Below, piece after piece: positions 6,567 to 61,901 of a stretch of 64,000 bases of DNA. A model generated the notes under the pieces. That model did no database searches, was not told where the DNA came from, and worked only from the letters and a program-made list of their open reading frames with translations. Every line of letters begins with the position of its first letter. Position 1 is the stretch's first letter. The stretch spans positions 1,149,501-1,213,500 of the forward strand of contig JASPKZ010002337.1 in assembly GCA_030220185.1 (NCBI GenBank), given 5' to 3'. A program made the translations under genes and the position numbers. The DNA is from Diploptera punctata. Taxonomy: Eukaryota > Arthropoda > Insecta > Blattodea > Blaberidae.

Positions 6567-7083
6567 TCCCGCACCGTAGGCGAGCGATTAAAGGCATCAT
6601 GCCTTGGTGGAAAGCTATGGAACGCTGGTTCGAGTCACCATGAACGAACATGTAATTTCGGGCAACACGTGACCGGTGCCCACGCAGCATCTTGAGGAAT
6701 TAGGCTGGCTTCAATGGCCTGTGATTTCAAATTCAGAAAACCAGCTACAACGGCTGGGGAAATCGACATGCTGACTAGATGTCGCCACTATACTGGATAT
6801 ATAATCGTCCAGTTCTATATAATTGTAGGCTTTCACGGCCGGCGTCTTGATCCATATTTGGTTTGTCTTCCGGGCTTATAGGCCGTGGTCTGGTTGTCTT
6901 CTTACTCGACGTTTCGTCTACTGCTGCGGTAGACGAAACGTCGAGTAAGAAGACAACCAGACCACGGCCTATAAGCCCGGAAGACGAACCAAATATGGGT
7001 CCAGTTCTATGTTTAACACACATAGATAAGACCAGTAGCCAGCTAGAAGGGCAAAGAACTTTTAGGGCTGTTGCACCATGGAG
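6567..7083 (+). repeat. SINE3 (tRNA-derived), split by palindrome P1
   Basis: It starts atcccgcaccgtaggcgagc and has the family middle block caaaatt..aaaaccagctacaacggctg. It is interrupted at 6819 by P1 and resumes at 6999. Confidence 0.75.
6819..6998. mobile_element. P1: palindromic element with hammerhead-like stem II, 12-bp TSD
   Basis: Inverted arms 6852-6921 and 6929-6998 (70 bp, one mismatch) surround a 7-nt loop. There is a 33-nt one-sided extension at 6819-6851 containing aggctttcacggccgg. Each arm reads gtagac-gaaac-gtc, the stem II/GAAAC end of a hammerhead ribozyme; the inversion point falls in its loop. Direct repeats gtccagttctat flank it (6807-6818, 6999-7010). It is likely derived from a Penelope-like element 3' end. 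Confidence 0.75.
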
Positions 7084-7450
7084 ACTTTTTTGTGTGTGTG
7101 ATTATTCATAAAAGACTAAAATAAGACACGATGTTTTTTTATAAAGTAATTAGTTTAAGCAGTACAGTCATTAAATGTTAAATTCCTGAAAAATGCTAAC
7201 TACAAAATGTTTCCTTATTTCTCACAAATCCAAATATGTATACTAACACATAAACGGTGTCATTTTAAAATATATTTTGAAAAAAATCCTGACAAGAAGT
7301 TAAAGTACTCATTCTTCCTTTTTTTGACATTAAATTCCCTCCAGACTCAAAACAGCTAAAAAAAAAAAGAAGTTCAGTATTTTTTTTACACAATAGGCCT
7401 ACAGTATATTGAACTTTTATAGGAAAAAATCTCTATAAGCTTTAATTTAA
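7084..7450. other. Unannotated AT-rich DNA
   Basis: Poly-T and poly-A tracts only. Absent from block B. Confidence 0.4.
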
Positions 7451-7560
7451 TATTAATTAAAATAGTTCATACCTCACCTCATATCCAGTCTTCTAATTAT
7501 ACTGCAGTTTCAAAGTCTTGGCAGCTCATCTTCAGTAATATCTCGTCGAGTCATGTTATG

Positions 7561-7880
7561 CCTCCGCGCTGTAACCGAGTGGTTAAGGCAGAGCTTACGG
7601 GACTTGAGCTGGTTCGAGTCTCCATGGGGGAATAACTTTTCTCATGGAATTTCGGCCAGTATGGGACCGGTACCCACTCAGCATCGTGAGACATTTGGGT
7701 AGCTGCAATAAGTAGCAGGTCCAGGTTGAGAAAACCAGCTACAACGGCTGGGGGACCAGACATACTGACCGTATGTCACCCCTACATGGGCTTGATATCG
7801 TCTACATCTGTGATTAACACATGTGGATGTGAGGCCAGCAGCCGGATGGTAGGTCAAGGGCCTTCTAGACCCTTCTAGAG
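7561..7880 (+). repeat. SINE3, full length, inserted in P2
   Basis: 320 bp flanked by atgttatg (7553-7560, 7881-7888). The head gctgtaaccgagtggttaag is tRNA-like. The right junction is identical at 48809, so the insertion predates the duplication. Confidence 0.8.
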
Positions 7881-8379
7881 ATGTTATGTCGATCAGAAGA
7901 ACTACTTCTTCTTCCCTCTATTGGTGGACGGTAAACCTCCGGATCCAATAAGAATCCGCGGGAATTTCGAAGTTCATAAGTTTTTCATTCTTGTTTTTTT
8001 AATGTGGATTTTTTCCCAAAGCATGAGTTCTTTTTGTTTTTCTATTTGTTTAATTAGACTGGCTTTTGATTCAATTAGATTTTTTCAGACAATGCATGAG
8101 CAGCTACTGCTGATTTTTCCACTTCAACATTTTTGAAATTTCTAAGATGTACTTTCAGCCTTGTTTTCAAATTTCTGTTTGTTTTTCATGTGTAAATTTT
8201 GTCACAATCCCTGGATCTGATGTGATAAATTCCTGATTTGTTTTCTTCTTCAATTAATTTATCAAACAGGAATTTATCAGATGAAATGCAGGGATTGTAA
8301 CAAAGTTTACATAGGAAAAACGAAAAGAAATTTGAAAACAAGGGTGAAATAACATCTTAGAAATATCAAAAATGGTGAA

Positions 8380-8573
8380 GTGGAAAAGTCAGTAGTAGCT
8401 GTTCATGCTTTTTCTGAAATAAAACATCTAATTGAATCAAAATCCAATCTAATTAAACAAATACAAAACAAAAAGAACTCACGGTTTGGGAAAAAAATCC
8501 ACATTAAGAAAAAAACAAGAAAGAAAAACTTACGAACTTCGAAATTCCCGCGGATTCTGATTGGATCCGGAGG
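8380..8573 (+). pseudogene. GIY-YIG domain C-terminal part, P2 right arm
   Basis: The open stretch KSVVAVHAFSEIKHLIESKS and KKIHIKKKTRKKN follows the GIY-YIG core at 8268-8377, from which it is separated by a TAA near 8349. Only the endonuclease end of a Penelope-like protein is present, with no RT. Confidence 0.65.
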
Positions 8574-8798
8574 TTCATCGGTCCAACAACAGAGGGAAGA
8601 AGAAGTAGTTCTTCTGATCGACATAACATCAGTCGATGAGATATTACTGAAGATGAAGCTGCCAAGGCTTTGAAACTGCAGAATAATTATAAGACTGGAT
8701 ATGAGGTGAGGTATGAAGTATTTTAACTAATCTTAATATGGTATATAACCAAGTTCTAGTATATTTTTCTTTATTATTCTTTTATACTTTATTTTCAG

Positions 8799-8944
8799 TT
8801 CCTCACAGTTTCTACCAGTGGAACTACTATGTAACTAACTTGTTTCACTATGGAAGTTTCTATCCACCTGAATACGACCTCAAATCTATTGAAACGCCAA
8901 TAACTCTCATGTACTGCGATAATGATCCTCTTGCAGATCCTACG
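8799..8944 (+). CDS. Upstream lipase paralogue, exon 7 (gene continues before window)
   Basis: 146 nt with the same acceptor, donor and phases as 49982-50127. It reads [20 protein letters not shown] and YCDNDPLADPT, so the catalytic Asp is kept. Differences from the other copy include S for G, LF for FV, E for G and A for G. The open frame and intact splice sites suggest the upstream paralogue may be functional at least here. Its exons 1-6 lie beyond the left edge. Confidence 0.9.
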
Positions 8945-8989
8945 GTAAGTAGCTATTATTTTAGTTTTTACTTTTGAAGAGAAAATTAT

Positions 8990-9364
8990 GCGCCTAGACT
9001 GGAGTTCGAATTCAGGATAACTAGCGTTATACGCTAATGCTCTAACCGTCTCAGCTATCGTAGGCCTCCAAATTAAACACATTTTTTTCTCTTATACATT
9101 TTGATTCCCGAAAGTCAATTGTTATGAACCGATGTATCGACACACAAATGACAGCTTCTTATTTAAGAAGATATTTAATGGAAATTTAACATTACTTTAT
9201 GAGGCTAGTAGAGCTTCTTTCAATGTTTTTATTATAAATATAACATTTTTCACTGAAAGACAAATTATATTTGAGGAGACAAATATACGCCTAGACTAGA
9301 ATTCGATCCCAGGATCTTTAACTTTATACGCTAATGCTCAATCGTCTGAGCTGTCCTAGGCCTC
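8990..9364 (-). repeat. SINE5 pair (tRNA-derived), tandem
   Basis: Two tRNA-like heads on the minus strand (8990-9069 and 9288-9364), each with B-box-like gttcgaactcc or gatcgaattc and head ggaggcctacgatagctgag, about 298 bp apart. The same pair follows exon 7 in block B at 50170-50550. Confidence 0.7.
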
Positions 9365-9424
9365 CAATATAAACGCAAAATTGTCTCGTATTCTATTATT
9401 TCTTTATTCGGATTGGGGCAGACT

Positions 9425-9496
9425 GCTCTTAGCTCTGAATATATCTATCGCGCAGACTGCTCTTAGCTCTGAATATATCTATCGCGCTATCCCAGT
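9425..9496. repeat. Tandem duplication, 2 x about 36 bp
   Basis: gcagactgctcttagctctg plus aatatatctatcgc is repeated twice. Block B has one copy near 50605-50645. Confidence 0.7.
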
Positions 9497-9505
9497 AAAT
9501 TACAT

Positions 9506-9800
9506 TACACTACTGCCATTGGATCTCCAGCTCTGAGGTTTAGGTTATACGAGAGGTAAAGGGAGAAACTCGCCCTCTACTGCCAATAAGGAAATGGTTG
9601 ATGTAGGAGTGCACCACTACCACAACCAATCACTGCTCTTGACGCAGCTATAGCGCGCTAGTAAGGTTTGAAATTGCTGAGATGTTGTTAACTGTATGTC
9701 TGCTAACCGCATATATAAAGTTTACTCTCCCACTGAATATCCATATCGGCAACACTGTTTTGAAAACATCAGGGCCGGAGAATCAGCGGCTGGGGTATAC
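9506..9800. mobile_element. MITE family M1 with TIRs
   Basis: About 290 bp matches the better preserved copy at 49531-49792. The ends are degenerate inverted repeats (agccactg/cagcggct type). The interior contains ctctactgccaataaggaaa and ccactgaatatccatatcgg. Confidence 0.6.
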
Positions 9801-10892: not shown

Positions 10893-10909
10893 AGCAGTAA
10901 TCGTAATTA

Positions 10910-13039: not shown

Positions 13040-13208
13040 AGCAGTAATCGTAATTATTAATATCAATTAACAATTGAGTTAAGAGGACTCGGTTCTGAGG
13101 AGGAATAAAAAAGTAGTTCGTAATTAAATAGTTCTATTTATCGTACTGTTTACCTGACATTATAACAAGTGTTTGTTAATGAAGGGTTTGTTTAGCATTA
13201 AAATATAC

Positions 13209-13881
13209 AGAGTGTTTCAGAATAAGTGTTACAGACTTCTAGGGGTTGCAGAGGGGACTTAGTGTAAACATTTTTGATAAGAAACCCATGTCCGCAAACG
13301 TACCATTTCGATGTAAAATAAGTTTCAAGATCGAATCACAGTGGGCTAATATCGTGTGTCTTGTGTTTTAGAATAAGTATTACAGACTTCTAGGAGTTGT
13401 AGAGGGGACTTAGTATATACATATTTGAGAAGGAACCCATGTCCGGAAATGTACCATTTCGATGTAAAATAAGTTTGAAGTTAGAAAAAAATGGGCTGAT
13501 ATCGCGTATTTATGTTTCAGAAAAAGTATTATAGACTTCTAGGGGTTGTACTACACCTGTTGAGTCGGAGGAAAATCTTCTTGCACGAATTCTGGCGGCA
13601 GCACACACCAGGTCTTGTGGGGCGTGTGTATGAAAACATGGGTCGCAGGTACACTTTGTGCAACAAACAACAGGGTCGTCACATAGAACCACATTTGTAG
13701 TACGACCCCTAGAAATCTGTAATACATATTCTGTAACAGAAGACACACGATATCAGCCCATGTGTTAGGATATTCAAACCTATCTTACATCGAAATGGTA
13801 CGTTTCCGGACATGGGTTCTTTATCCAAACTTTATCTACTAAATCCCCTCTACAACCCCTATAAGTCTGTAATACTTTTTG
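13209..13881 (+). mobile_element. Tc1/mariner-like relic with multiplied terminal units
   Basis: The left end has three tandem units of about 150 bp (13209, 13366, 13513), each starting with a cagaataagtgttacagact-type sequence. The right end carries the inverse, ending near 13881. Between them are remnants of the transposase C-terminus (ENLLARILAAAH, then frame change, GLVGRVYENM and GRHIEPHL). No intact transposase. Block B keeps only the left units (53037-53420). Confidence 0.65.
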
Positions 13882-14049
13882 TTTTTTTATTGCATCCCAC
13901 CCCACTAACTTACAAAGGAACTGTCAATTTGTGCATGCCGAAACCTACTGCTTAACTAATGAAAACTAACAAATGTACAAAAAGAAATTACCTAAGTTCA
14001 TAACATAGAATAAATATTTGCCTATAAATAAATAAATAAATAAATAACC

Positions 14050-14265
14050 CTTTCATGGTATTTTTACGTTGTCCCGGTGAAATAGCTTGCATTCTTAAAT
14101 GACCCCGAGACCTATTCCGGCGGTAGCATTGCTGCTGAAAGGGTTACACTTGCCGGATAGGTCGAAGGCGATAAGACAAATGAAAAAATACGTTGGTCGA
14201 AAGAGCGTCGATCTTTCACTGTAAAGTACAACTATCAAGAAACGCGGACATGAGTAAAAGTATTC
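14050..14265. other. Unclassified repeat-like stretch
   Basis: Shared with 53425-53635. Contains ttgccggataggtcgaagg. No coding capacity seen. Confidence 0.35.
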
Positions 14266-14269
14266 GACA

Positions 14270-14580
14270 TTATTTCAGGATAGGTATGTGTGGATAGCTT
14301 ATGTCTATGCGGCCATGAACCTATGGGTTCGATAGTGTTGGTGAGTTAGTTAGCTTTTTAGTTTAGTTAGTTAATTAACTGGCGCTACTGAACACATAGG
14401 CTCATGGCCACGCGGACATAAGCTCTCTATACATCTCTATCCTGTGCTAATATCTTTTCCAATCATCCCCTGTATAATCTACTTTCATCCAATCATGATT
14501 AATGCTATTCTCACACCTCATTATTGTCCTGCCTACTGGACGCATTCCCTCTGGTTTTCCAATAAGGAGCTCACATGTCC
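14270..14580. repeat. Two RTE-like LINE tails facing tail-to-tail
   Basis: 14275-14352 (+) and 14372-14580 (-) are short 3' ends of the RTE-like family, meeting at their tail repeats (gagttagttag / gttagttaatta). Shared with 53637-53945. Confidence 0.6.
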
Positions 14581-14917: not shown

Positions 14918-14928
14918 GAATAATATAT

Positions 14929-15601: not shown

Positions 15602-15699
15602 TTGTATTACTTGACTTTACATATCGATTTGGAAAAATACAAGTTTTACACATATAAAATGAACATTTTTAATTTATTCATATACAGTTTATGAATGTT

Positions 15700-18317: not shown

Positions 18318-18955
18318 AATGACTACTTAACTCACGTCGCAAATGGTAGTCAATGACCAATCACGTTTCAATTAATTCTGTTTTATACCAATGACAGTCG
18401 TGTTTCAACTCGCTCTTTATCGATTTCTCTTTATCAGCTCCTGCTTTTGTGATAAAGAAAGCTCCTCCTTTTTTAATATTCTGGACAGGTTAGACCATTA
18501 TTTTTCTCCAACAAACACATTGAATACAGCAAATAATGAACAGATTCAGTGATTTTACTGAGTTGTTTATTTAAAATATAAATGATTAACATATAATGTT
18601 GATTATAATAGTTTGATGTGTTTCATTATTTCTCCACTAAAGTGCATTCTAATATTGCGATCCTATTTGTCAATAAATAATATGATCGAGTTGCAGTGAA
18701 TATACATAACCTCACATTTCTAATTTGTTTTCAAACATCGCCGTTTACATTAACAATATAAATATTTTAAAACACCGGTAACTATATTCAAATAATTATT
18801 TTTTAGTAAAGAGCTTAATTTTATTCGTTAAATAGTCCTAACAAATGCCACTCCTGATTTCCAAATTCTCTAGATAAATTCACTCCTCACTTCTTGAGTC
18901 GTGAATTTATCGATACTATGGAAATCACTCGTGGCATTACTTATGATAAATAATA
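18318..18955 (+). repeat. Repeat C, copy 1
   Basis: It starts actacttaactc...agtcaatgaccaatcacg and ends ctcgtggcattactta. An inner hairpin pairs gataaattcac with gtgaatttatc about 60 bp from the right end. Other copies are at 50660-51435 (+) and 54316-57252 (-). Confidence 0.65.
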
Positions 18956-22673: not shown

Positions 22674-22681
22674 CTGTATGA

Positions 22682-30216: not shown

Positions 30217-33200
30217 TATAATAAGGACAATATCGCACAATCTGCAATGTTTCTTGTTCACTTCAAGTTTTACACACCTCTGTGAGTGAGTTTACTTTAT
30301 TTTTGCACAACATTAAATGATATCGGCCGCAGTTTGGCCCACATAGTTTGCACTTGCACTTTCTTCCGGCTCGTTGTATTGTCTCTCTGGCAAATCCAGG
30401 GATGGAAGCTATGTACTGCAAATCTCGACATGGAGTGTTGCAAGTCATATCCGGCTTGTGTCCACTCACTAGATAATCGCATCCGAGGAGAAGAAATCCG
30501 GCCGTATTTCTTATTTCTTCTTGTTAAGTTCTTACAGTAATTTCTTGTAAGCTTCTATGTATGGTAGAAGCTGGTATTAACGTATTCTGCTATGATGAAT
30601 TGCTCCTTTGCCAATACATATACGAGAGTTATTGGAGTATGCTTGGTTAGTTTTAGTGATTTCTGGAGGAAGTTGGCTTTAAATATTCTATGTTTTCCAG
30701 GTTTTTGTTTTTTAGGTATTCCCAAATAATCTCTAAACCATTGATTATGACTGATGCGAGTTTTAGACGGAAAAAAAGTATTGGCTCCACTCTGTGATTG
30801 GAGTTTAAAATTCTTAAGTATATTTATGTTTGACGCAGGATATTTGCTGGCTGACGCTGGATACGACGTGTGGATGGGGAATGCACGTGGTAACACATAT
30901 TCCAGGAATCATCTTACGTTAAGTACTTCCAGCGTAAAGTTTTGGGATTTCAGGTAATGAACACTTGAATAAAAAATTAATATATTTTTTAACTTTTTTG
31001 CAGAGAATAATTTTAAAATCCGGTCGATCAGTGTATTTGTATATATATTAAATACAGAAACATTTTCAGGTCACGTTCGTAGGATATGTATCAGGATATA
31101 GAGTTTTAAATTAGACCCTTCTTAAACTAAAAAAACATCCTAGAAGAAACAGGAATAAAATTTGGTATAAAAATAAAATGGCTATAAAAATAGCACATGT
31201 GCCATTTTTACCAATGTCACTAAATTGTTTTTATAACATTGCCATAAAAATAACACATGTGCCATTTTTACCAATGTCACCAAATTGTTTTTGTGACATT
31301 TATGATATGTTCTCCTGGCACTGGTGGAATATAAATGTTACCATTGCATGATGCATTGGTCTATAAATTTATGGGATCCTTGATTTTAAATTGCATTAAT
31401 AACTCTTTTTTTTAACTTAATTTATGATTAATGTATCCTGTTATTTTGATTAGAAGATTAAATTATCTTGGGGATAACCCTAACTCACTTCTTAAGTTGT
31501 AGCGTCTGGAAGGCAGAGTTACGTTACCCGATGAAACGATTGGTGATTAATGATAATGAAGCAACAGGGGAGTCCTTAAACCTAAATATAAATCACGGGA
31601 TGCCATAAAAATAATTATCTTTAAAAAAACCTATGGTCTGATTGTGAAAGTTAATAAGATAATTTATATTTCAGTTGGCATGAAATGGGTATCTACGATT
31701 TACCAGCTGAAATAGACTACATACTGGGTTGAAACAGGACAATCAGATCTATTTTATGTAGGACATTCCATGGGAACTACTATGTTTTATGTCCTACAAT
31801 CCGAAAGGCCACAATACAGCAACAAAATACGCCATATGATCAGTTTAGCTCCAATTGCTTACATGGGACACGTTACAAACCTTATGCTGATATCGGCGCT
31901 TACTCCCCGGTGGTCAAGTATGTATGTTACTATTTTATTATTATTATTATAGGAGGAGAGAGGAGAGGAGAGGAGAGGAGAGGTAGGGAGGAGGGAGGAG
32001 GAGAGGGAGAGGAGAGGAGAGGAGAGAGAGGAGAGGAGAGGAGAGGAGAGGAGAGGAGAGGAGAGGAGAGGAGAGGAGAGGAGAGGAGAGGGAGAGGAGA
32101 GGAGAGGAGAGGAGAGGAGAGGAGAGGAGAGGAGGGAGAGGAGAGGAGAGGAGAGGAGAGGAGAGGGAGGAGAGGAGAGGAGAGGAGAGGGAGAGGAGAG
32201 GAGAGGAGAGAGGAGAGAGGAGAGGAGAGAGGAGAGAGGAGAGGAGAGAGGAGAGGAGAGAGGAGAGGAGAGAGGAGAGGAGAGAGGAGAGGAGAAGGAG
32301 AGGAGAAAGGAGAGGAGACAGGAGAGGAGAAAGGAGAGGAGACAGGAGAGGAGACAGGAGAGGAGACAGGAGAGGAGACAAGGAGGAGACAGGAGAGGAG
32401 ACAGGAGAGGAGACAGGAGAGGAGACAGGAGAGGAGACAGGAGAGGAGACAGGAGAGGAGAACAGGAGAGGAGACAGGAGAGGAGACAGGAGAGGAGAAA
32501 GAGAGAGGAGACAGGAGAGGAGAAGAGAGGAGAGGAGAGAGAGGAGAGAGAGGAGAGAGGAGAGGGAGAGGAGAGGAGAGGAGAGGAGAGGATAGGAGAG
32601 GTAGATGATATTAGAGTATAGTAGAGGATATTAGATAATTATATTATATTATATGATATTATATTATAGTTATATTATGTATATTTCTATTGATATTATA
32701 TTATATTATATTATATTATATTATATTATATTATATTATATTATATTATATTATATTATATTCTATTATATTATATTATATTATATTATTATATTATATT
32801 ATATTATATTATATTATATTATATTATATTATATTATCATATATATATTTATTATATTATATTATATTATATTATATTATGGGGGCCACGCCGTAGCGTA
32901 GTGGCTAAGGCACTGAGCTACAAGCCGGAGGGTCCAGGTTTCAAGTCCCGTTGGGGTCAGGATTTTTAAACTGACCCAAACCCTCTGGCGGCACTATGGC
33001 CCTGGGGTCGACTCAGCCTCTAACGGAAATGAGTACCAGACGCTTGTTCTGGGGGGTAAAGGCGGCCGTCACGCAGGGCTGACAACCCGGCTGACATAAA
33101 GTGCCGATTGTCTAGAAAAAGTGGGAGCCTTAACCTCCTACTACCCCAAGGGCCTCCGGGTCTGTTGTGGGATCACTTTACTTTACTTTACTTACTTTAT

Positions 33201-39200: not shown

Positions 39201-42200
39201 TATATAAAACTATTATTCTACCAGTTATATTATATGGGTGCTAAACATGGACTCTTACTTTAAGGGAGGAAAGGAGATTACGAGTATTTGAGAATAAAGT
39301 TCTTAGGAAAATTTTTGGACCAAAGAGAGATGCACAGACAGGTGAATGGAGAAGACTTCATAACAATGAACTACATGGTCTTTACAGGAAGCCAGATATA
39401 ATAAGAACAATTAAGTCTCGTAGACTGCGATGGGAAGGACATGTTGCGCATAGGGGGAATGAAAGACGTGCATGGAAACTTCTTGTAGGAAAGCCAGAAG
39501 GGAAACGCCCAGTTGGTAGACCAAGAATGAGGTGGGAGAACAATATTAACTATGATTTGAGGGAAGTAGATTATACAGGGAATGATTGGAAAGCATTAGC
39601 TGAGGATAGGGATGTATGGAGAGCTTATGTCCGCGCGGCCATGAACCTACGGGTTCGATAGTGCCAGTGAGTAAGTAAGTAAGTAATGTTTCGTATACTG
39701 CTGCTGAACATCGTCAGGACACTGTGTTCGAATTCTGTAGAAAGGCGGAATTTTAACTTCTTACTATCCCAAGAACCTGCTAAAGCTCGTGATAGGATCA
39801 TTTTATGTAACATATCTGTCTCACATTTATTTTTGTAGGTCATTATTTTATTTAGCTGAGGATAGGGATGTATGGAGAGCTTATGTCCGCGCGGCCATGA
39901 ACTTAAGGGTTCGATAGTGCCAGTGAGTAAGTAAGTAAGGTAATTATTTTATGATACTGAACTTAGGAATAGAACATCAAATCCTACTAACAAACGTGTT
40001 TCCTCAAAATACTTTTTTTACTTTTTTTAATGCCGGTATTGAAATAAAAATTTGCTAACAACTTCAGGCATGTTATCCATAGAAAACTTCAAAATTTCAC
40101 TTATAAATGCTTTCAATTAAAAAATCAAGGATAAGTAAAACAAGTTTTTATAAAGATTATGACAAAATGTTTGCATATATTGTGGATCTACCAATGCTAA
40201 AAATTCTAAATATTCAAGTTAATATTAATAAGCTATCTAAAAAATAATTGTGACTGAATTTTCTATACTGTGGTAGTAAACCTAGTCCCTACCGCCCACT
40301 AGCGGGCGTTTCAGGATTTTTGGTGGGCGGTAGAGGTTCAAAAACATTTTCATAAAATTCCCCGTGACAATTTAAATTTTAAAAAATATACTATAAATGT
40401 AATTTCATCAGATTTTTTTCTTTTGTGTATGCGAAGTATAAATAAGAAGATAGATTTAACTGCAGTAAGTTTATTTTATAAAGTTCTAATCTGCCAAATG
40501 TAGCGAAAGTCCGATATAAAATATGTATAAAGTACTAATTAATATATGCTTAACTTGCTTTAATTCTGCTTTATAGGCCAACATTTTATAATAGTAGTAG
40601 GTAATAAGTAACGTTCATACAATGTTATTTACAAATATGGACCGCAGGGGCAGCAAGCCGTACGTGCTGTTGACAGTCCGTATTTATCAGAAAAAAGTAA
40701 TTGATTACCGATACATTACAATTACATTAGAAATTAATTAAGTTAGGTATATTCATTAAATATTAATAATTTTACATTTTGCTTACTCATTTATTTATTC
40801 ACGAATAAGTGTTGTTCTTACCTTCCGCGTCTCGTCCAGAAATTTACCGACGGTTTATCCAATATTCTGGGATTACCATTAATTCATAGAATGCCAATCT
40901 ATCACGATTTGAATTTAGAAAGATTTCCAGCAATACCTGACGCCAAAAACATACCAAAAACATTAAATGTTCCTTATATATGTATTACGCTTCAAAGATC
41001 GTGCACATTGGACATAATCGCATATTGTGATCGTTCGTTATTTTTGTAAATTTCCTTGCCCTCGACCTAAGCCAAGCGAGCCCTAATCTCTCTTTAAATC
41101 CAGAACTATATATATATATATTATATATATATATATATATAACTCTTCTTAAGCATAGTGAATTTGTTCCCGTACAATGAGTGAAAATACATTGTTGGTT
41201 ATACACACCAATACATGCTATAATGTTTACCTCTCTCTACATTACATATTATCACTATTATACAAAATTTAGAATAGATACCAAATAAATTTATAAATGC
41301 ATTATTCGAAGCACGATAACATACGGTACAGAAACTTGACAGTTGAATACAAATTTGAGTTTAATGCTTATGTCTATTGAAATGGATTGTTTTAGTCGTT
41401 CAACTAGACATTGTAAACTGGGAAAAAAAATCAGAAATATAATCATCAGACAACATATAAAAGTCCATTATCCAATATTAGATTTTGTGAGATACAGACA
41501 ACTAGAACGGTATGTTCATATACGTCGAATGCCAGAGAAAAGATTACCGAGACAAATTTTGGAATGGATTCCACCTGGGAAAGGAAAGAGCTAGATTTAA
41601 ATGGATGGATGATGTAAGAAGAGGTATGAGGGAAGTAGGTCTGGAAGAATTGGAATGGGAAGATGGAGAACAATGGAGAAAGAAGATAAAAATTTAAAAA
41701 GCTTTGGGTACAGGAAGATGTTTTATTACATTGTAAACCTGTTTATAAATAAATAAATAGAAAATTTAACTACTAACAGAAATACAAAACTGAGCGATGG
41801 GTTTAGAGGTTGTCTATCCTGATCTCTATTGTAATTCCAAGTGCAACGTCCTTGGTCATGCTAGGATGTTCCTGATTACATTTTTCCAATGTTTACAAAT
41901 GTTCTCCCTTCCAGTTTTGTATTTATTATTTCTTTATGACACATTTCATGAAAGGATTTACAGATTGGTAGGATATTTCCCTTTCTAATGTCTTGGTTCT
42001 ATTAACCTCTTGGCTTAAAGCTAAATATAAATAAATGTTTTAATAATTACAGACAATGTTACCAGTGATACTTGCTCACACTCCAGCCGGTGCCTCGACC
42101 AAAAGTGTTCTTCACTACGCTCAAGAAATAAGCACAAGTAAGATTTTATTACCGCTACTTTGTGTTAGAAAACTAATCATTCTAACTAACTCACTGGCAC

Positions 42201-45200
42201 TATAGAACCTATAAATTCATGGCCGCGCGGACATAAGCTCTCCACACACCCCTACCCTGAACTAATGTTGTCCAATCATCCCCTGTATAATATATTTCCC
42301 TCAAATCATGGTTAATGATATTCTCCCATTTCATTCTTGGTCTACCAACTGGGTGTTTGCCTCTGGTTTTCGTACAAAGAAGTTTCCATGCCACCCTTTC
42401 ACTTCCCTTTGTGCCAGATGTCCTGCGCATTGCAGTCTACGAGACTTACCTGTTCTTATTATATCTGATTTCCAATAAAGGTCGTGTTGTTCCCTGTTAT
42501 GTATTTCGATTGAATATATCTATCATATCTAGTATACCGAAAATAAAGTGGCCAATATATATATACAATTATATTATTTTTGGTCTGGACATCTTACCTC
42601 AATATTAATGTTGATTTGTTCTTGGACATGTTTCAAAACAATTCTGTTTTATCGTCAGCTTTCCCAGACTGTCTGGGAAAGCTGACGATAAAACAATTGT
42701 TTTGAAACATGTCCAAGAACAAATCAACATTAATATTGAAGTAAGATGTCCAGACCAAAAATAATATAATTAAAATAACCTCAAAATATAACTTCGTTAA
42801 ATTAAATATATATATATATACAAGTTCACCACTGTGGTCTCGAGGTAGCGTGCTGCCTTGTTACGCAATGGGCCCTGGTACGAATCCCGGTCGAGACAAG
42901 CTTCCTGGGTGAGGTATTTTCGGGGGTTTTTCCTCACCTGTAAGACAAATGGCAGATAACTTTAATGACCCAAAAAGTCCCCGAACATGGTCTGGCCATC
43001 ATTATCATTATTATCCTTCACCGGTGTGGGAAGCAACGGGAAGCTACCACACCTATAATTCCCTAATGAAGCTGGATAGCATAGCCCTAGAAGAGAACAC
43101 TATAGAATGGAATATACACCGCGCCCTCAAATATAGTATCATACTTTAAATTACTACTACGCCGCTTTGGATAATCGTGTCTAAATGAAATTGATGACAA
43201 TCAAAAGAGGAACTCAAAAAGTTGTTTCTATACCTCATAAGACATCGCTGTCTGCTAAATATCCAACAATTAACCCATATCGACCACAAAAAAATGATTA
43301 AATTTAGTTTAGTTTCTGTATTGTTGTCCATTATTCTCCATTGTTGACATTGTTAACAAGCACAACACTTTTTGGGTTTCTCTTTTGAGTGTCAGCAATT
43401 TCATTTAGATACGATTATCCAAAGCGACGTAGTAGTAGTTTAAAGTATGATACTATATTTGTGGACGCGGTGTATATGAAAGTCCCTTAACACTTAAGTG
43501 GCCGCAATTTTTATTTAATCAAAACCAAACTTATATATATAGTAATTATTGAAAACAAGTAAGGTCGAGTTCGTTAACCAACAAAATCGGACGGTTAGGT
43601 GCAGGATTTCGCCCGAAACGAAATTTTAAAAATCGCCTTAGCGGTCACAGTTTTCGATTTTTCACAACAAATCTCAACATACGGTATTAAAATAAACCGT
43701 GGAAGGTATTATTGAAAAATCAGCGATATCCGACTATTAGAAGTGGAGGTTTATCTTAAACCCGAAATTAAACATTGACTAGCAACCGTCATAATGTACA
43801 GTATACCATACTATTTCTATTTTCTACAGTTTTTAAGCTACATACTTGATTGTTTGTACACACATTCATGCTATAATAGGTACTATTATATTAACGTTTC
43901 ATCCTTCTAGGCTCAAATGTTTTTGAGTTATTGAAGAAAATCCATTCAAAAATTTGGATATTTAATTTTTAATAAGTCCCATAATTTTTTTAGTACTTTT
44001 TAAATTTTTTTCTACACGACCACTGACTTATTTAGAATAATACTATGGATTAACTTTTCTATATCATTATAATAAAGGAAAAAAATATATATACATCCTC
44101 TGTATATGATTTTTTAAATTACTACACATATTTCACTTTTATTTTAAAAACTATCAACGTTGTTTCAAAATCCATTATTATCCATAGTGTGTGGGACACG
44201 CAGTTAAAATTTCGTGCTTCTATCATTAAATTTGTCAATGCTATTTTGATTTGAATGTATTGAAATGCAATGAAAATAAAAGTGCGGAAAAGCCAATTTG
44301 AAAGTTTGCATGCAGTTAAATTAAAATGTAGCATACGTGCCCTCCTACAGTCATTAGGGAGACTCACAAGCGCCATAGGATGCTGAAACGTCGCCAACTT
44401 ATACTTTAAGGTACGTAGTATTTTTTATTACAAAAAACAGAAGAATGCTAAATTTGACCGCAAATGTCGAAAATTTCACCCATCACCCCCCTTAAATTAG
44501 CAATATATTCTATAGGATACATTAGTTTAATTTTTAATTCTTGTATGCCCTTGTTTCCCTCAACGATTTAGGTGCTCTCCCCCTACAGGGAAGAAATTGA
44601 ACCATACTAATTTTAGTTACATTTGTTTTCGTATACATGTCATTGGAGTGGCCCGTGATCAGCGTTCCGCCTCATACTGACATCTAGGAAACCAAGGTAG
44701 TACTAGGATGGAAAAAATTCGGTAAACTTTGCTTAGAGACCTTTTTATTAAGGTTTAAGGATATTTTACGACCCTGAAAATCTTCAGACTCGGGCCCGAC
44801 GGATTAAAGTCCCTCCCGGTGGACTTGCTCCTTGGATTTTTTCCATCCTAAAAAATCCATCGACCCTGGCTGGGTTTGAACCCGCGATCCTCGGGACCAG
44901 AGGCAAGGAGCATAATCACTAATCCACCGCAGCCGATTTATACTTTTAATAAACTAATGAAAAAAATTGAGTGGATATTATTGAAATTGGTGTCAAATTG
45001 TACAATAAAATACAAATAGGTAATTACTACAGTCTGGATTTTTATATGTTAAAAGTTAAGATTTGTAACAAATTATAACGAGACGTTAGAGTTATGGCCG
45101 TCTTTTGTTTTAGTTTCAGATACAAACAGTTGAATAACATAATGAGAAGAAAGACTTATGACTGTATTTTATCTTGTTTCGCACACAAACAGTTTAATAT

Positions 45201-45696: not shown

Positions 45697-45736
<40 letters not shown>

Positions 45737-48700: not shown

Positions 48701-51700
48701 TCACCCCTAGACTAGATATCGTCTACCTCTGATTAACACATGTAGATGTGAGGCCAGCAGCCGGCTGTAAGGCCAAGGGCCTTCTATCTAGACCTGTCGC
48801 GCACGGAGATGTTATGTCGATCAGAAACTACTTCTTCCCTCTATTGGTGGACCGATAAACTTCCGGATCCAATAAGAACCCGCGGGAATTTCGAAGTTCA
48901 TAAGATTCTGTTTCTGTTTTTTTTTTTTTTAATGTGGATGATTTCCCTAACCGTGAATTGTTTTTGTTTTTCTATTTGTTTAATAAGACTGGCGTTTGAT
49001 TCAATTAGAATTTTTTTTTTCAGACAAAGCATGAGCTGCTACTGCTGACTTTCCCACTTCACCATTTTCGACATTTCTAAGATGTTCTTTCATCCTTGTT
49101 TTCAAATTCCTTTTTGTTTTTCCTATGTAAATTTTGTCACAATCCCTGGATCTGATCTGATAAATTCCTGATTTTTCTTCTTCAATTAATTTATCAAACA
49201 GGAATTTATCAGATGAAATGCAGGGATTGTAACAAAATGTATATAGGAAAAACAAAAAGAAATGTTAAAACAAGGGTGAAAGAACTTCTTAGAAATGTCA
49301 AAAATGGTGAAATGGAAAAGTCGGTAGTAGCAGATCATGCTTGTTCTAAAAAAACATTAATTCAATCAAAATCAAATCTAATTAAACATGTAAAAGAAAA
49401 AAAAACTCACGGTTTGGGAAAAAAAATCCACATTAAAAAAAACAAGAAAGAAAAATGTATGAACTTCAAAATTCCCGCGGATTCTGATTGTATCCTGATG
49501 TTTATCGGTCCACGAACAGTGGGAAGAAGATATACACCACAGCCACTGTATCTCCGGCTCTGAAGTTTATGTTATACGAGGGGTAAAGGGAGAAACTCAC
49601 CCTCTACTGCCAATAAGGAAATGGTTGACGTAGGCCACAACCAATCACTGTTCTTGACACTGCTATAGCGCGCTAGTAAGGTTTCAAATTGTTGTCAGCT
49701 GTATGTCTGCTAACCGCATACATGAAGTGGCCACTCCCACTGAATATCCATATCGGCAACGTCAAGGCCGCAAAATCAGTGGCTGCTGTATAGTTCTTCT
49801 GATCAACAGAACATCAGTCGATGAGATATTACTGAAGATGAAGCTGCCAAGGCTTTGAAACTGCAGTATAATTAGAAGACTGGATATGAGGTCAGGTATG
49901 AAGTATTTTAATTAATCTTAATATAGTATATAACCAAGTTCTAGAATATTTTTTTATTATTATTTTATACTTTATTTTCAGTTCCTCACGGTTTCTACCA
50001 GTGGAACTACTATGTAACTAACTTCGTTCACTATGGAAGTTTCTATCCACCTGAATACGACCTCAAATCTATTGGAACGCCAATAACTCTCATGTACTGC
50101 GATAACGATCCTCTTGGAGATCCTACGGTAAGTAGCTATTATTTTAGTTTTTTATATTTGAAGAAAAAAATATGCGCCTAGACTGAAGTTCGAATTCAGG
50201 ACAACTAGCTTCATACGCTAATGCTCTAACCGTCTCAGCTATCGTAGGCCTCCAATTTCAACACATTTTTTTTCTCTTATACATTTTAATTCCCGAGCGC
50301 CAATTGTTATGAACTGTTGTATCGACACATAAATGACAGCTTCTTATATAAGAAGATTTTAATGGATATTTAACATTACTTTATAAGGCTAGTAGAACTT
50401 CTTTCAATGTTCTTTATTATAAATTTAACATTTTTTTTCACTAAAAGACAAATTATATTTGAGGAGACAAAATATACGCCTAGAGTGAGGTTCGATCCCA
50501 GGATCTTTAACTTTCTTACGCTAGTGCCCAATCGTCTGAGCTACCCTAGGCCTCCAATATTAATGCAAAATTTTCCCTGATTCTATTATTCCTTTATCCG
50601 GATTGGGATAGAGTACTTTTAGCTCTGAATATATGTGCTATCCCAGTATATTACATTAATAAATGGGATCTTCTTGGTTACTATTTAACTCATACTCCAA
50701 ATGGGAGTCAATGACCAATCACATTTCAGTGAATTTTGATTTACAATCAATCACGATTTTTTTACCTCGATTTTATCAATTTAATTTTCTCACTTTAAAA
50801 TCAAGCTCCTCCTTTTTAACATGCTCAATAGGTCCGAGCATTATTTTACATTGACTGACTCTCTAAGTTATACGTTGAATATATCAATTTATATATTAAG
50901 ATGTAAAAATTTTAGAATGTATGTGGCTTACCAGATTGTATATATAGTGCACCAATGTAACCAGATAGTGCTTGCGGGAGATAAATATAAAAAAATTGTA
51001 GCAATAGATTATACCACAAAAAAATAATCCACTGTTTGTACTTTCTTAAGTATTATTTTCCAGGAATTAACGTTGCAGAAAAATATAATTGACATATTTA
51101 CTTCATAGGATATCAGATACTAATTAATAACCTATAATGTTGGTTATAAATTTCTCCACTAGGGTGCATTCTTACAATATTGCGATCCTTTGGCAACAAA
51201 TAATATGATCTAGCTGCAGTGATCAACAAATGAAGTTTAACAATCGTTTCTCATTTGTTTTCAAACATCGCCGTTTACATTAAATATATAAATATTTTAA
51301 AATAACTATATTTAAATAATGATTTGTGAGTAAACCAGCTTAATTTTATTCGTTAAATAGTCCTAACTAATGTCACTCTTGATTTCCAAATTCTCTAGAT
51401 AAATTCGGAAATCACTCGTGGCATTACTTACGATAAAACTCTATTACACATAGTCAATAAAATCCTAAATCAATTTTTGTTGTGTCATTGACTATATTAC
51501 AGTAGTCCTCTTTATCTAAAACAACGACCTTATTTCCTTCATCAGCCTTCGTATAGAAGCAATTCATTCTTCGAAAACGCTTAATGACTTTTCTATTTTG
51601 AATATCATTGCATTTTAATATGGGTTTTATTGACTACGTGTAATCCAGTATCTTATATTTCAATCATCTATTCTAAAATGTCAGGCTATATGGGTTGCAG

Positions 51701-54700
51701 ATCGTCTTTCGAGTCCGGTATACCCAATTCTTCTCTCATGACCCCAACTGCCATTTTTGGGATATGCCCGTGGCCACGAGAAGGGACTACAATCCTCCCA
51801 TAAGTCCTTCTGTCCATTTTCTTTTATTTTTATTGAACAGCCTCAGAGTCATGAGGCAGCACCCATATATGCTCCCCACTAAAGCCATATTTTAACACCT
51901 ATGGACGCCAAACAAACTATTTTATGTAAAATAATATGAATTAAAGGGCAACATAAAATGAATAATGAGAAATTAAATGTAGGGTACAGGGAGGGGAAAA
52001 AAATAAATAATCAACGTAAGTCACTTTTCTCTTAAAACACAGAAAGTGTATTTTTAGCTGTAACATCCACATTTCCTAACCAGTATGCCTAACTTTGGAA
52101 TCAATACATTTAAAATTCATTTTGAACCACCGTTGAGGTTGTTATGTAAAAAGTTAAAATATTAAAATTAGTACCTGAACTATCAGCCGTCCTCAACAAA
52201 TTGAAAATCATTAAAATAGTGAAGGCCTTTGAAAACATCTTATTCCATCCTCAGCACTGGGTCGGAATATAAATCCATGACTAATTGTATATTTTTTTGC
52301 TTCATGTTTCTAAATGATATTACTTTCCACGCAGAATCTAATGACACCTAAAACAATATTTAGAGAAAAAAGTGACTTACGTGGATGTTTATATGCATCC
52401 TTGAAATTAAATGAAATGGCGAGAAAAGAGATAGGACAGTGATGTGGCATGTAATTAGCAAACGGGAGAATCCCGAGAAAAACTCGATAAATCTCGGTAT
52501 GGGTCACCACCGATACCCCTCTAGAGGCTGCAGGAATCGTAATTATTAATATCACAATTAACAATTTTGTTAAGAGGCCTCGGTTCAGAGGAGGAATAAA
52601 AAAATAGTCCGAAATTAAACAGTTCTGTTTATCAGTTGAATGCAGGCTTTCACGGCCGGTCATCATAATGTTGAGTGATTCCGGGTTATGTGGCCGTGGT
52701 CCATAGTTGGTGTTAATACCAGACGTTTCGCCCTCAACTGCGGAGGGCATCTTCAGTGGCGAGTGCTTCTAGGCGTGTTTCCTGATCGGAAGATCTACTT
52801 AGAGTGAGCGCTGTGGACGTTGTATACTATCTTCCGATCAGGAAACACGCCTAGAAGCACTCGCCACTGAAGATGCCCTCCGCAGTTGAGGGCGAAACGT
52901 CTGGTATTAACACCAACTATGGACCACGGCCACATAACCCGGAATCACTCAACATTATAGTTCTGTTTATCGTACTGTTTACCTGACACTATAACAAGTG
53001 TTTGTTAATGAAGGGTTTGTTTAGCATTAAAATATACAGGGTGATTCAGAATAAGTGTTACTGACTTCTAGGGGTTGCAGAGGGGACTTAGTAAATACAT
53101 TTTTGATAAGGAACTCATGTCCGCAAACGTACCATTTCGATCTGAAATAAGTTTGAAAATCGAATCACAGTGGGCTAATATCGCGTGTCTTGTGTTTCAG
53201 AATAAGTATTACAGACTTCTGACGGTTGTAGATGGGACATAGTAGATAAAGTTTTCATACGGAACCCATGTCCAGAAACGTACCATTTCGATGTAAAATA
53301 AGTTTTGAAGTTCGAAACACAATGTGCTGATATCGTGTGTTTATGTTTAAAAAAAGTATTACAGACTTCTAGGGGTTGTACTACACCTGTCGAGTCGGAG
53401 GAAAATCTTCTTGCACGTTGTCGTGGTGGAAAGTCTTGCATTCTTAAATGATCCCGAGAGCTATTGCGGCGGTAGCATTGCTGCCGACAGGGTTACCCTT
53501 GCCGGATAGGTCGAAGGCGATAAGACAAATGAAAGAAAATACGTTTGTCGAAAGAGCGTCGATCTTTCACTGTAAATTACAACTATCAAGAAACGCGGAC
53601 ATGGTTTCCAGTGGGGTAAATTATCCGCTATTATTTCAGGATAGGTATGTGTGGAAAGCTTATGTATATGCGGCCCGGCCATGAACCGATGGGTTCGATA
53701 GTGTCAGTGAGTTAGTTTGCTTTTTAGTTTATTTACTTATCTAACTAGCTCTACCGAACACGTAGGTTCATGGCCACGCGGACATAAGCTCTCCATACAT
53801 CTCTATCCTGTGTTAATATGTTTTTCCAATCATCCCCTGTGTAATCTACTTCCATCAAATCATGATTAATGCTATTCTCACACCTCATTATTGTCCTGCT
53901 TACTGGACGCCTTCCCTCTGGTTTTCCAGTAAGGAGCTCCCATGTCCATATTTCATTCCTAATTCATTTTAAAACATGTTCAATGTTTAAAAAGCCCCAC
54001 AATTTGTGACGCGTATTAATGTATTAACGATGTTACTTCTGTCCTTAACAATCAATTGTTTATGCTGATGATTGACAACAGCCCGAAAAGTCTACACAAA
54101 TTAAAACGATAATAGAAGACTACTATTATTTCAGGTATGTTTGAACAATTAAACTTAAATATCGTCGTGGTGACTGCAATAGGTCGTATGTCACCAAAAA
54201 TCAGAATTGTGTTTTATTGCATAATCATAACCAGCATTCATCTTTCCATAAGCTGCAAATGGTCCTATGTCATCCAGGAACAAATATAATATTATAATAT
54301 AATTTTAATAATCATAAGTAATGCCACGAGTGATTTCCAAATTATCGATAAATTCACGACTCACGAAGAGAGGAGTGAATTTATCTAGAGAATTTGGAAA
54401 TCAAAAGTGGCAATTTTTAGGACTATTTAACAAATAAAATTAAGCTGTAAACTCACAAATCATTATTTAACTATAGTTAAAATTAATTAAAAACAATGTC
54501 GCCGCTGAAATCATATCTCTAATTGCTACAAGAATGCTAGTTTCAGGAATTGTGTCACCAGTATTACAGAAAGCTCGAACTGTATTAATTCATAAGAGCG
54601 GCGATAAAAACGAACTTTCAAACTGGCGTCCTATAACCATTTGTTCAGTAGTTCGGAGAGTAATCGAGAGAGCCCTTAATAAACGCCTGTGTAATTACAT

Positions 54701-57544: not shown

Positions 57545-57639
57545 TTGTATTACTTGACTTTACAAGTCGATTTGGAAAAATACAAGTTTTGTACATATGA
57601 AATGAAAAATTTTATTTTATTTATATACAGATTTTTAAT

Positions 57640-58590: not shown

Positions 58591-58920
58591 GAGCAACAAA
58601 AAATAAACATTTTTGAGTCTCAGAAAGAAAAATATGTGATTCTGATAGTATTTTTACTCATGAATTCAAATATGATATCGGCTTTTCTCCATCGCGCAAG
58701 GTTTCCGAGAGACAGGAATTTATAATTTCAAACACTTTAATATTTTCTACATTCGTAACTACACAATATTCGAACAATCGGACTCACCTAGAAAGTAAGA
58801 AATAACTTTCTGCTATATTTCGCCTGTGGAACATCCCTCTTGATGGTCCAACAATAATCGGCCAGCATATTAGGATTCCATTTGCCTTGATACCGTTTTT
58901 CCATAGCTGAATCAATTTGA
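58591..58920. other. Unannotated DNA
   Basis: Nothing recognised. Confidence 0.35.
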
Positions 58921-58929
58921 GTTAGCTCA

Positions 58930-59270
58930 TTTGGTTTTATTTTACAGTGGACAAAGATTGGAAGCAGCCGAAATGCGATTTTTAAGAAATATAGGATATA
59001 CTCTGCTGGATAAGAAATAAATGAAGATATCAGAAACGAACTAAATATTTTCAAACTTACAGACCGAATAATTAAATATAGGAACGACTGGAAAGAACAT
59101 ATTGATATAATGCCAGAATGAAGATTTCCAAAATTATAGCTAAGATATAAACCGCACGGAAGGAGAAATGTTGGTCGCCCACATAGAAGATGGTCTGACA
59201 ATTTTAACAATTCTAGCTTTCATGAAACCTGAACGAGCCAACAGGCTTAATCCCTGGATGATGATGATGA
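58930..59270 (+). pseudogene. LINE RT C-terminal tail, ATG-repeat end
   Basis: Broken frame: RLEAAEMRFLRNIGYTLLDK, later a RRNVGRP-type block and ANRLNPWMMM, ending in (GAT)n. This ending is common in insect non-LTR elements. Confidence 0.55.
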
Positions 59271-59430
59271 TGATGGACAAATGGACGAAAAAACGTTTAT
59301 TAAAAAATAATTACTTAAATTCATTAATTGAAATTAAAATAAAAAATGTGGGTGATGGAGAAATTCCGAATACATATTTGAAAACACGATACAAAACTGC
59401 ATTAAATACACTATTAGTATTGTTTTATTT

Positions 59431-60564
59431 TTTATTATTTCACTCACCTCATACTTCATAAATCATAGCAGACCCTGGGTTTCTTCACGTAATTTGTGAC
59501 ATTGTCAATGCTGCGTCACGTTCACAACTGACGTCCAACGGCCTTTCTATCCTGCAGACTGACCTCCGCGCCATCTGGTGGCCGACCGAAGAATTTCCAA
59601 ATCAGTCCCTCTTTCTTTATAACCGGGTATTTCAAAATTCATAGTTGTATTTTCATTCTTGCATATGTATTTTTTTTCCCAAATTGTGAGTTCCTTCGGT
59701 TTTTCCAATTGTTTTAAGTAATTTGTTTTGGTTTCTATTCTATGTTTTTCTGACCAGGCATGTGCAGCTATTGCAGATTTTTCGGTTTCTTCCATTTTTA
59801 ACATTTCTGAGGTGTTTCTTTTAATCTTGTATTTAGATTCCTTTTTGTTTTTCCTATGTATATCTTTCACAATCTTTACAATTAATTTGATAAATTCCCG
59901 ATTTTTTGCAGTCTTCAATTTTTTTCATTTTTGTTGGTTTTTATTAAATTACCTAAGCTGTAATCATTTTTCGGTGCTAATTTAATGTTGAATTTGTTGA
60001 AATTTTTTTGAAACTTAGCACCGAAAAATGATTACAGCTTAGGTAATTTAATAAAAACCAACAAAAATGAAAAAATTGAAGACTGCAAAAAATCGGGAAT
60101 TTATCAAATAATTGTAAAGATTGTGAAAAGATATACATAGGAAAAACAAAAGGAATCTAAATACAAGATTAAAAGAACACCTCAGAAATGTTAAAAATGG
60201 AGAAACCGAAAAATCTGCAATAGCTGCACATGCCTGGTCAGAAAAACATAGAATAGAAACCAAAACAAAATTACTTAAACAATTGGAAAAACCGAAGGAA
60301 CTCACAATGTGGGAAAAAATTTACATATGCAAGAATGAAAATACAACTATGAATTTTGAAATACCCGTTATAAAGAAAGAGGACTGATTTGGAAATTCTT
60401 CGTCGGCCACCAGATGGCGCGGAGGTCAGTCTGCAGGATAGAAGGCCGTTGGACGTCAGTTGTGAACGTGACGCAGCATTGACAATGTCACAAATTACGT
60501 GAAGAAACCCAGGGTCTACTATGATTTATGAAGTATGAGGTGAGTGAAATAATAAAAAATAAAC
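59431..60564. mobile_element. P6: 1.1-kb palindromic Penelope-like unit with GIY-YIG
   Basis: Arms of about 550 bp meet at 59980/60015 around a 34-nt spacer. The left arm (minus, 59547-59918) encodes SEMLKMEETEKSAIAAHAWS and ends TMNFEIPGY. The right arm has the same with stops, plus [10 protein letters not shown]. Outer ends carry a degenerate hammerhead-like core: TTGACAA (60479-60485), stem tcac/gtga, GAAAC (60504-60508). A family distinct from P2/P4. Confidence 0.7.
59547..59918 (-). pseudogene. GIY-YIG domain fragment, P6 left arm
   Basis: 123-codon open frame covering the C-terminal half of the Penelope-type endonuclease domain (KSAIAAHAWSEKHRIETKTN, LTIWEKKYICKNENTTMNFE). The N-terminal GIY part is degraded. 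Confidence 0.6.
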
Positions 60565-61300
60565 AATATTAAAGAACCTCATAGTGTTATTTCCTATCTA
60601 CATAACTTAACAACTATTAGTACTCGATGAGACCAAGATCATGTTGGCCAGTTTAATTTTCTGAAGGTCAACATCGGTGTCTTTATATTCGTATACTAGT
60701 CTGTTTTGTCTACAATATAGGTCCTATTATAAAACAAAAACTGGGAATACTCGCGTTGGCGCAACGTATTTGCCCCCACTGCAGTTTTTTGAAGCACTCC
60801 ACCTACAGCCCTTCATACTAACAGTTTTAGATTTATTGTCTCTTCAGGTTTCACCAACATCTGCCTGCGCCCAATTAATCTACTGCACAACTCTCTGTCA
60901 TTCCAATCTCAATAGTCCAGCCTTTTCCCCTCGTGCTGCTTAAAACACCATCAATGCACGTTATTTTGACCATCCTCGTCTTCTTACCAAGTGACACCCA
61001 TTCTAGTTTTATTCTTGGGAATCTGTCTTATATCATTCTTTTCATATGACCACGACATTTGAATTGTATGTTTTTATGAAATCCACAATAGAAGTCTGAA
61101 CATTCATCTCATGTTTAATTACACTCTTTCTTATTTTATCTCTTCCAGAAATTCCAGCTGAATTCTTCCAAAAATCAATTGTGCACAATTGAATTTACTT
61201 ACCCTTGTTGTTCTTCTTCATTTTTCCAATATAGGTTTAAAACTGTTAAATTTATATATTAAATTTGGGAATTTTTAACATTATGAGGGTCTATTCATAG
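60565..61300. pseudogene. LINE fragments on the minus strand
   Basis: 60720-60950 is related (inverted) to 6115-6230. 61000-61160 in minus frame shows FKCRGHMKRM and RIKLEWVSLGKK, a weak RT tail. Confidence 0.35.
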
Positions 61301-61901
61301 GAATTAAATGAATCGTGATTCCTTCTTTCCTCATATTTCTATGTTTTTTTAAACACAGCACTGAAGTATCAGCGACCCATATTGTCACCATCATCAGCTG
61401 TTTTGACGACTGTCATTTTTTTTCTTTTCCCGGTAATTATTCAAACTGCCATCTGGTGTTCTTTTGGAGGAATAATTTTCTATACTGACATCTGTTGTAT
61501 TTTTGAAGAAATTTCTAATCAAGCTCGATTCGTCTGGAATCTCGAAGTTCACGGTTCTAGTAAGTTTTTTTTAATATTTATTTTTTTCAAAACCTTTGGA
61601 TTTAACAGTTTGAAAAAAAACATATATTCAAAAAAACCACACTAGAACCATGAACTTTGAGATTCCAGACGAACCGAGCTTGATCACAAAGTTCTTCAAA
61701 AATACAACAGATGGCAGTTTAGAAAATGATTCCTTCAAAAGAACACCAGATGGCAGTTTGGATAATTACCGGCAAAAGAAAAAATTGACAGTCGTCAAAA
61801 CAGCTGATGTGGTGACAATATGGGTCGCTGATACTGCAGTGCTGTGTTTAAAAAAAAACATAGAAGTATGAGGTAAGAAGGAATCACGATTCATTTAATT
61901 C
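61301..61901. mobile_element. P7: palindromic Penelope-like unit, degenerate hammerhead
   Basis: Arms 61301-61561 and 61641-61901 are collinear (261 bp each) with substitutions, around a 79-nt spacer. Both encode MNFEIPDEPSLITKF-like endings typical of the Penelope GIY-YIG C-terminus. The core is CTGATGA-stem-GATAC on the left arm (61366-61397 minus) and CTGATGT...GATAC on the right (61804-61834), so GAAA has become GATA. Confidence 0.6.

Follow-up and report, generated by a model that had tools for sequence, protein, structure and literature searches.

How does one stretch of an insect genome come to hold seven palindromes, each built of two inverted copies of a segment that carries a hammerhead-like motif? 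This question was raised by a 64-kb window (the whole stretch of DNA analysed here) from the cockroach Diploptera punctata, contig JASPKZ010002337.1, positions 1,149,501 to 1,213,500. The original prediction, made from the letters alone, was that the palindromes P1 to P7 are ends of Penelope-like elements (PLEs) with minimal hammerhead ribozymes, inserted as 5'-truncated, head-to-head dimers, and our analysis upholds this reading. With a probability of roughly two in three, each palindrome is a single 5'-truncated PLE insertion consisting of two head-to-head copies of the 3' part and, jointly with this, reverse transcription was primed from both strands of the cut target, which we regard as the best mechanism. 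For the inverted ends of PLEs, self-priming was proposed in 2013 and extension of both target strands was shown by biochemistry in 2024, and the small dimers described here would be compact natural products of the PLE insertion step.

The palindromes and their assignment to Penelope-like elements

All seven inverted repeats were present, within a few bases of where they had been predicted, and a gap-tolerant inverted-repeat search of the whole window recovered them again, plus several additional palindromes (Table 1). The dimer arrangement is common to all seven. The more detailed claim of one shared design, two inverted copies of a segment that ends in CTGANGA, stem II and GAAAC, held only in part: the P1 arms begin inside stem II and contain the second half of the ribozyme only, P6 reads TTGACAA and P7 GATAC, and GAAAC is not the end of the copied segment, which extends tens of bases further.

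Table 1. Positions of the palindromes, the P5 empty site and the hammerhead-like cores in the 64-kb window
Feature	Position	Strand	Left arm	Right arm	Aligned arms	Centre	Remarks
P1	6819-6998, within 6807-7010		6819-6924 (-)	6926-6998 (+)	79 nt, 95%	1 nt	inverted repeat
P2	7447-8736		7447-8238 (-)	8264-8736 (+)	159 nt at 86% plus outer blocks	25 nt	inverted repeat; GIY-YIG region in both arms; left arm interrupted by SINE (about 7561-7878)
P3	42567-42771		42567-42669 (-)	42671-42771 (+)	82 nt at 96%, inner 25 nt at 100%	1 nt	inverted repeat
P4	48808-49924				159 nt at 87%	22 nt	segmental duplicate of P2, incomplete; repeat related to 9506-9753 breaks up right arm at about 49531-49788
P5	52634-52958, within 52621-52971		52634-52794 (-)	52829-52958 (+)	130 nt at 100%	34 nt	inverted repeat
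P6	59424-60563		59424-59983 (-)	60012-60563 (+)	blocks of 175, 122 and 64 nt at 94-99%	28 nt	inverted repeat; GIY-YIG region
P7	61294-61908		61294-61587 (-)	61615-61908 (+)	170 nt at 87%	27 nt	inverted repeat; endonuclease C-terminal end
P5 empty site	13041-13368	+					the two P5 flanks have blast matches at 13041-13142 and 13128-13368
P2 right-arm hammerhead-like core	8647-8676	+					5/5 stem II pairs
P2 left-arm hammerhead-like core	7507-7535	-					4/5 stem II pairs
P3 right-arm hammerhead-like core	42682-42708	+					partner 42630-42658 (-)
P4 hammerhead-like core	49832-49861	+					motif match
P5 left-arm hammerhead-like core	52725-52756	-					partner 52867-52898 (+)
P6 right-arm variant core TTGACAA	60479-60508	+					partner 59479-59508 (-); 4/5 stem II pairs in both
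P7 altered hammerhead (GATAC)	within 61344-61390 and 61810-61856						both arms

The identity of the arms was examined through their coding sequence. The C-terminal part of a GIY-YIG protein, proposed for P2, P4, P6 and P7, was found in P2/P4 and in P6, and P7 holds the C-terminal end of the endonuclease only. The P2 right arm matched the GIY-YIG model of Pfam at 29.3 bits (E 1.1e-6), the P4 right arm scored 22.4 bits, slightly below the cut-off of 22.6, and the endonuclease region of P6 resembles that of P2/P4 (tblastn). The arms of P1, P3 and P5 show no GIY-YIG region. In P2/P4, P6 and P7 the coding direction is outward, which brings the truncated 5' ends together at the centre, that is, head to head.

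P1 and P5 align at the DNA level with the junction between pseudo-long terminal repeat (pLTR) and open reading frame (ORF) of PAc, a Poseidon-type Penelope of Anolis (template RNA in PMC11167929). P1, P5 and PAc have in common CGAAACGTC, then a ACCACGGCC-like stretch, and a GGCCGTGAAAGCC tail. The ORF start of P5 overlaps the hammerhead core, where the PAc counterpart reads MPAIDVGETSGENASGTWPHSPKDIQQPCDPGHESL. A hammerhead lying over an alignable ORF start, by which the Penelope/Poseidon group is recognised, was thus found in P1 and P5, the ribozyme of P1 being half only. The protein match of P5 to PAc is weak (46% over 26 amino acids, E 0.012), and weak matches of the Anolis N-terminal protein elsewhere in the window (E 0.37-0.94) were taken as chance. 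For P3, which has no coding match, the hammerhead and the design suggest a PLE dimer; of the six assignments this one is the weakest. P2, P3, P6 and P7 look like families other than the Poseidon type of P1/P5.

Six assignments are counted for seven palindromes, because P4 was duplicated from P2 and six independent events remain (P1, P2, P3, P5, P6 and P7). That P2 and P4 are copies by duplication had been predicted and proved correct: a short interspersed element (SINE) is common to both left arms, and the right flank is also shared for about 570 bp beyond the palindrome, at about 93% and up to the end of the compared stretch. The inner arms of P2/P4 gave 354 comparable columns, 13 of which split left from right arms in both palindromes, against 1 that splits P2 from P4 and 1 of a third kind, indicating that the P2 dimer predates its duplication. 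The outer part of the P4 left arm, including its ribozyme, is absent from the window by DNA search. Transposition of palindromic RNA, one of the explanations first offered, is unsupported, since P2/P4, the one dimer of which there are two copies, was duplicated along with sequence of its right flank.

Chimeric inverted reads or other assembly or library artefacts can also produce palindromes, and the P6 arms, with 10 substitutions and ten one-base length differences, look like poorly polished long-read sequence. We give this explanation almost no credence, however, in view of the divergence of the P4 arms (up to about 18%), the 13 left/right differences common to P2 and P4, the SINE in one P2 arm, and the target-site duplications and empty site described below.

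Insertion signatures and the priming of the two arms

P1 is flanked by perfect 12-bp direct repeats, GTCCAGTTCTAT, at 6807-6818 and 6999-7010, and P5 by perfect 13-bp direct repeats, AGTTCTGTTTATC, at 52621-52633 and 52959-52971. As a control, 150 random position pairs were scored in the same way; the best score was 11, reached once, and 12 never occurred. The empty site of P5 lies in the same window (Table 1) and contains the duplicated 13 bp once, with one base different. P1 sits in a tRNA-type SINE, its left flank matching other copies by blastn and its right flank only in an alignment of the joined flanks.

P1 and P5 also carry a tail on one side only, in the left arm, of 33 nt in P1 (6819-6851) and 31 nt in P5 (52634-52664). 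A manual count on the PAc alignment puts the tailed ends at ORF positions 115 and 117, and the untailed ends at about 82 and 87. For PAc the commonest starts of reverse transcription are reported at 111-118. Two start sites lie next to each other there, and the stretch that separates them corresponds to a tail of 30-40 bp; the main text gives no position for the second site (PMC11167929). One arm of P1 and of P5 ends by the main PLE start and the other about 30 nt upstream, matching the known tail.

Long terminal inverted repeats are also the mark of fold-back, MITE-like (miniature inverted-repeat transposable element) DNA transposons moved by a transposase, and similar-looking palindromes do occur in the window, for example at 43112-43477. 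We disfavour this origin for P1 to P7 as highly improbable: hammerheads and sequence coding for an endonuclease are present in the arms, P1 and P5 have unequal outer ends, and duplications are of 12-13 bp in two palindromes and undetected in four.

According to the reading we prefer, priming on both strands, the endonuclease of the element would make a staggered cut in both target strands, reverse transcription of the PLE RNA would be primed at an internal start site by each freed 3' end, and a template jump or end joining would unite the two minus-strand complementary DNAs (cDNAs) at the centre. The PAc protein cuts and extends both target strands in vitro (PMC11167929). Priming on both strands is favoured because the outer ends of P1/P5 differ and duplications stand on both sides, and a single template history is favoured because the arm lengths are coupled, the centres small and the arms alike. 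A specific integration process, as was first suspected, is likely.

Several observations weigh against this reading. No arm extends to the telomerase-like reverse transcriptase that belongs to the same ORF in PLEs, so the enzyme of these families is not seen. In P2, P3, P6 and P7 the best direct repeats score 6-8, which is within chance, and P6 is among them although it looks comparatively young; target-site duplication is optional in PLEs, copies without one having been described (PMC3846280). In the same four palindromes the outer ends of the two arms are about level, which leaves the trace of two starts in two of six dimers. The P5 arms are identical (0 of 130 positions differ) and those of P3 differ by 1 substitution and a 2-nt gap, as expected if one arm was copied from the other. 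The P1 arms show 2 substitutions and one 6-nt gap, the latter since the left arm was given 6 extra outer bases, and the P7 arms show 28 substitutions.

The lengths of the arms tell against two independent events as well. Among the 10,395 possible pairings of twelve arms, 3, the observed one included, were as close in length as those in the dimers, and the number was still 3 when the centres of P1, P3 and P5 were assigned to either arm. For this test P4, as a duplicate, and a palindrome of uncertain status at 5387-5589 were excluded, and the SINE length was subtracted from P2; reading of the frames makes the centre part of the left arm for P2 and P6 and part of the right arm for P7. The match of lengths within dimers means that the two syntheses look coupled and not like independent truncations, with the caveat that near-equal dimers are what a palindrome-seeking reader finds. 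The whole-window inverted-repeat search recognised no unequal PLE dimer, four distant pairs not being examined singly.

Coupling of this kind is what the main rival provides. In self-priming, a single cDNA folds back and copies itself, so that the second arm is a copy and the centre a loop. This was proposed for head-to-head Penelope repeats, there on an antisense template (PMC3846280), and it explains the near-equal arms, the centres of 22-34 nt in P2, P4, P5, P6 and P7, and the identical or nearly identical arms of P5 and P3. However, self-priming does not predict that the second arm of P1 and P5 stops about 30 nt short, at the expected second start site, nor direct duplications on both sides, and a fold-back loop would not fit into the 1-nt centres of P1 and P3 unless these had been trimmed later. 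We therefore consider self-priming possible, though unlikely.

The outer ends of P1/P5, about 30 nt apart, argue for two initiations, and the matched arm lengths argue for coupled syntheses. Within the preferred reading of both-strand priming, a tentative and rather doubtful form is that the two reverse transcriptases of one PLE dimer, each on one cut end, copied the same RNA in convoy. In P1/P5 they would start from two neighbouring internal sites separated by about 30 nt, and they would run about one enzyme length apart, often stopping 22-34 nt apart once the leader reaches the end. If true, such a convoy would explain jointly why the tail is one-sided, why the arms are near-equal and the centres small, and why the arms of P5 are identical; it predicts that the 34-nt centre of P5 belongs to the untailed right arm, giving arms of 161 and 164 nt. 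In P2, P3, P6 and P7, with their level outer ends, both starts would have to be made successively at one site.

Inverted PLE ends were known before. Head-to-head dimers had been put forward as a whole class; this class is not new, inverted pLTRs having been described for rotifer Penelopes in 2013 (PMC3846280). In Adineta vaga, Pen2a and other Penelopes have inverted pLTRs, mostly head to head, with duplications of 8-10 bp seen, a 31-bp tail that is optional on one inverted pLTR, palindromes at the junction and an AT-rich target preference (Arkhipova et al. 2013, PMC3846280). Inverted terminal segments, a one-sided tail and target-site duplications are shared by P1 and P5. Unlike A. vaga copies described there, which include ORF sequence or captured host DNA, the dimers of the window are near-symmetric, and their arms stop short of the reverse transcriptase. 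With PAc (PMC11167929), in a comparison that covers P1 and P5 only, these two share the hammerhead over the ORF start, the alignable ORF start and the arm ends by the start-site region; the in vitro work on PAc read cleavage and start sites and left open the steps that complete insertion. The literature thus already describes minimal hammerheads and head-to-head repeats of PLEs as well as duplications and one-sided tails, and the window contributes two instances of a minimal form. In the open-access literature, which includes few subscription journals, we noticed no paper on near-symmetric minimal dimers as the prevailing form or on coupling of arm lengths.

Hammerhead cores in the arms

The motif of the original prediction, CTGANGA followed by GAAAC, has 8 matches in the window, 7 of them within P2, P3, P4 and P5. 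Stem II has at least 4 pairs in six of the eight, all six in P2-P5. In 40 shuffles of the window the mean was 1.1 matches (maximum 5), and 0.05 (maximum 1) with such a stem. A second motif, chosen after reading the palindromes, consists of the core, U, stem II and GAAAC with the 3-8 pair being C-G or U-A. It gave 12 matches, 9 with at least 4/5 stem II pairs and all of these in P2, P3, P4, P5 and P6; the remaining three (27958, 28707, 39688) have 1-3 stem II pairs. The corresponding means in 60 shuffles were 0.9 (maximum 3) and, with at least 4/5 stem II pairs, 0.03 (maximum 1). None of the hammerhead models of Rfam, by which the cores were to have been confirmed, matched the window at a threshold as loose as E 10.

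P2, P3, P4 and P5 contain a canonical type I core with 4-5 of 5 stem II pairs, and the stem II sequences vary between families yet still pair. The adjacent stem I has 4 pairs in P2 left, P4, P5 and P6 left, 3 of 4 in P6 right and one in P3. GAAA is followed by palindromic bases: ACGT in P5, ACATGT in P3, ACTGCAGT in P2 left and P4, and ACCCAGGGT around a central base in P6; P2 right has none. Minimal type I hammerheads of PLEs, which lack helix III, may act as dimers according to two reviews (PMC6155905, PMC7761336). The cores of the window likewise have no helix III of their own, and ACGT, ACATGT and ACTGCAGT could pair between copies.

P6 and P7 depart from the minimal hammerheads described there. 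Both arms of P6 read TTGACAA for CTGANGA, a change of C3U with G8A in which positions 3 and 8 are both altered and still pairable (U and A), and P6 has C at the cleavage position. P7 has GATAC, and its cleavage position is occupied by G, a base that is not known to be tolerated there. In the Anolis element, the double change C3G/G8C partly restores cleavage (PMC11167929). From its sequence, P6 may hold a natural covariant core; for a single element, lost function plus a chance second change is equally possible. Ribozyme mutants left insertion unaffected in vitro (PMC11167929). The ribozymes of the window may have been carried along, since the copied segment spans the pLTR-ORF junction, and they need not have acted in insertion.

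Single copies, other palindromes and matches elsewhere

The original prediction was to fall if single truncated copies vastly outnumbered dimers. In the 64-kb window, searches with the arm DNA, the endonuclease protein and the motif found no single non-palindromic copy; such searches would miss families that are not represented among the arms. Outside the window, pattern scans matched 25, 13 and 97 stretches of viral_contigs in three scans and at least 118 of genome_contigs. The matches listed, at 240 loci, included 15 hammerhead-like motifs with full stem II, none with an inverted partner, the best partial inverted partner of these 15 having 18 of 25 bases within 3 kb. Six loci in viral_contigs (L186, L191, L192, L196, L199 and L221) have CTGANGATGGC..GCCGAAACGTCC motifs in which stem II is complete and which lack an inverted partner. 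The P4 endonuclease piece, searched as protein outside the window, gave no match at E 0.001.

The additional palindromes of the window were rejected as PLE dimers after alignment: 43112-43477 is MITE-like, 13221-13880 is DNA transposon-like, and 18836-18946, 31185-31300 and 54304-54430 are short palindromes. At 14276-14444 and 53629-53818, 3' ends of long interspersed elements (LINEs) meet tail to tail at the centre, and 39852-42265 contains inverted LINE 3' ends; all three apparently involve the same LINE. By reading of the translations, the ORFs of the window include LINE-type reverse transcriptases, sequences that are common in cockroaches and other insects. The arms of four distant pairs (1194/1615, 21171/22004, 25763/28995 and 51303/54479) showed no match to the endonuclease or to the second motif with at least 4 pairs. 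A 203-bp palindrome at 5387-5589 (75%) has TTGAAAAT..TTCCGAAAG in its right arm; it may be a dimer of this kind that is older and has decayed, and it was not counted.

Two further features were observed. The splice-donor-like sequence GAGGTRAG, followed by AT-rich sequence, lies about 24-28 nt before the outer end in at least one arm of P2, P3, P6 and P7, with one-base variants in P3 right, P4 right and P7 left. A G/A-rich low-complexity repeat covers 31733-32638, a long stretch in which several frames are open on both strands.

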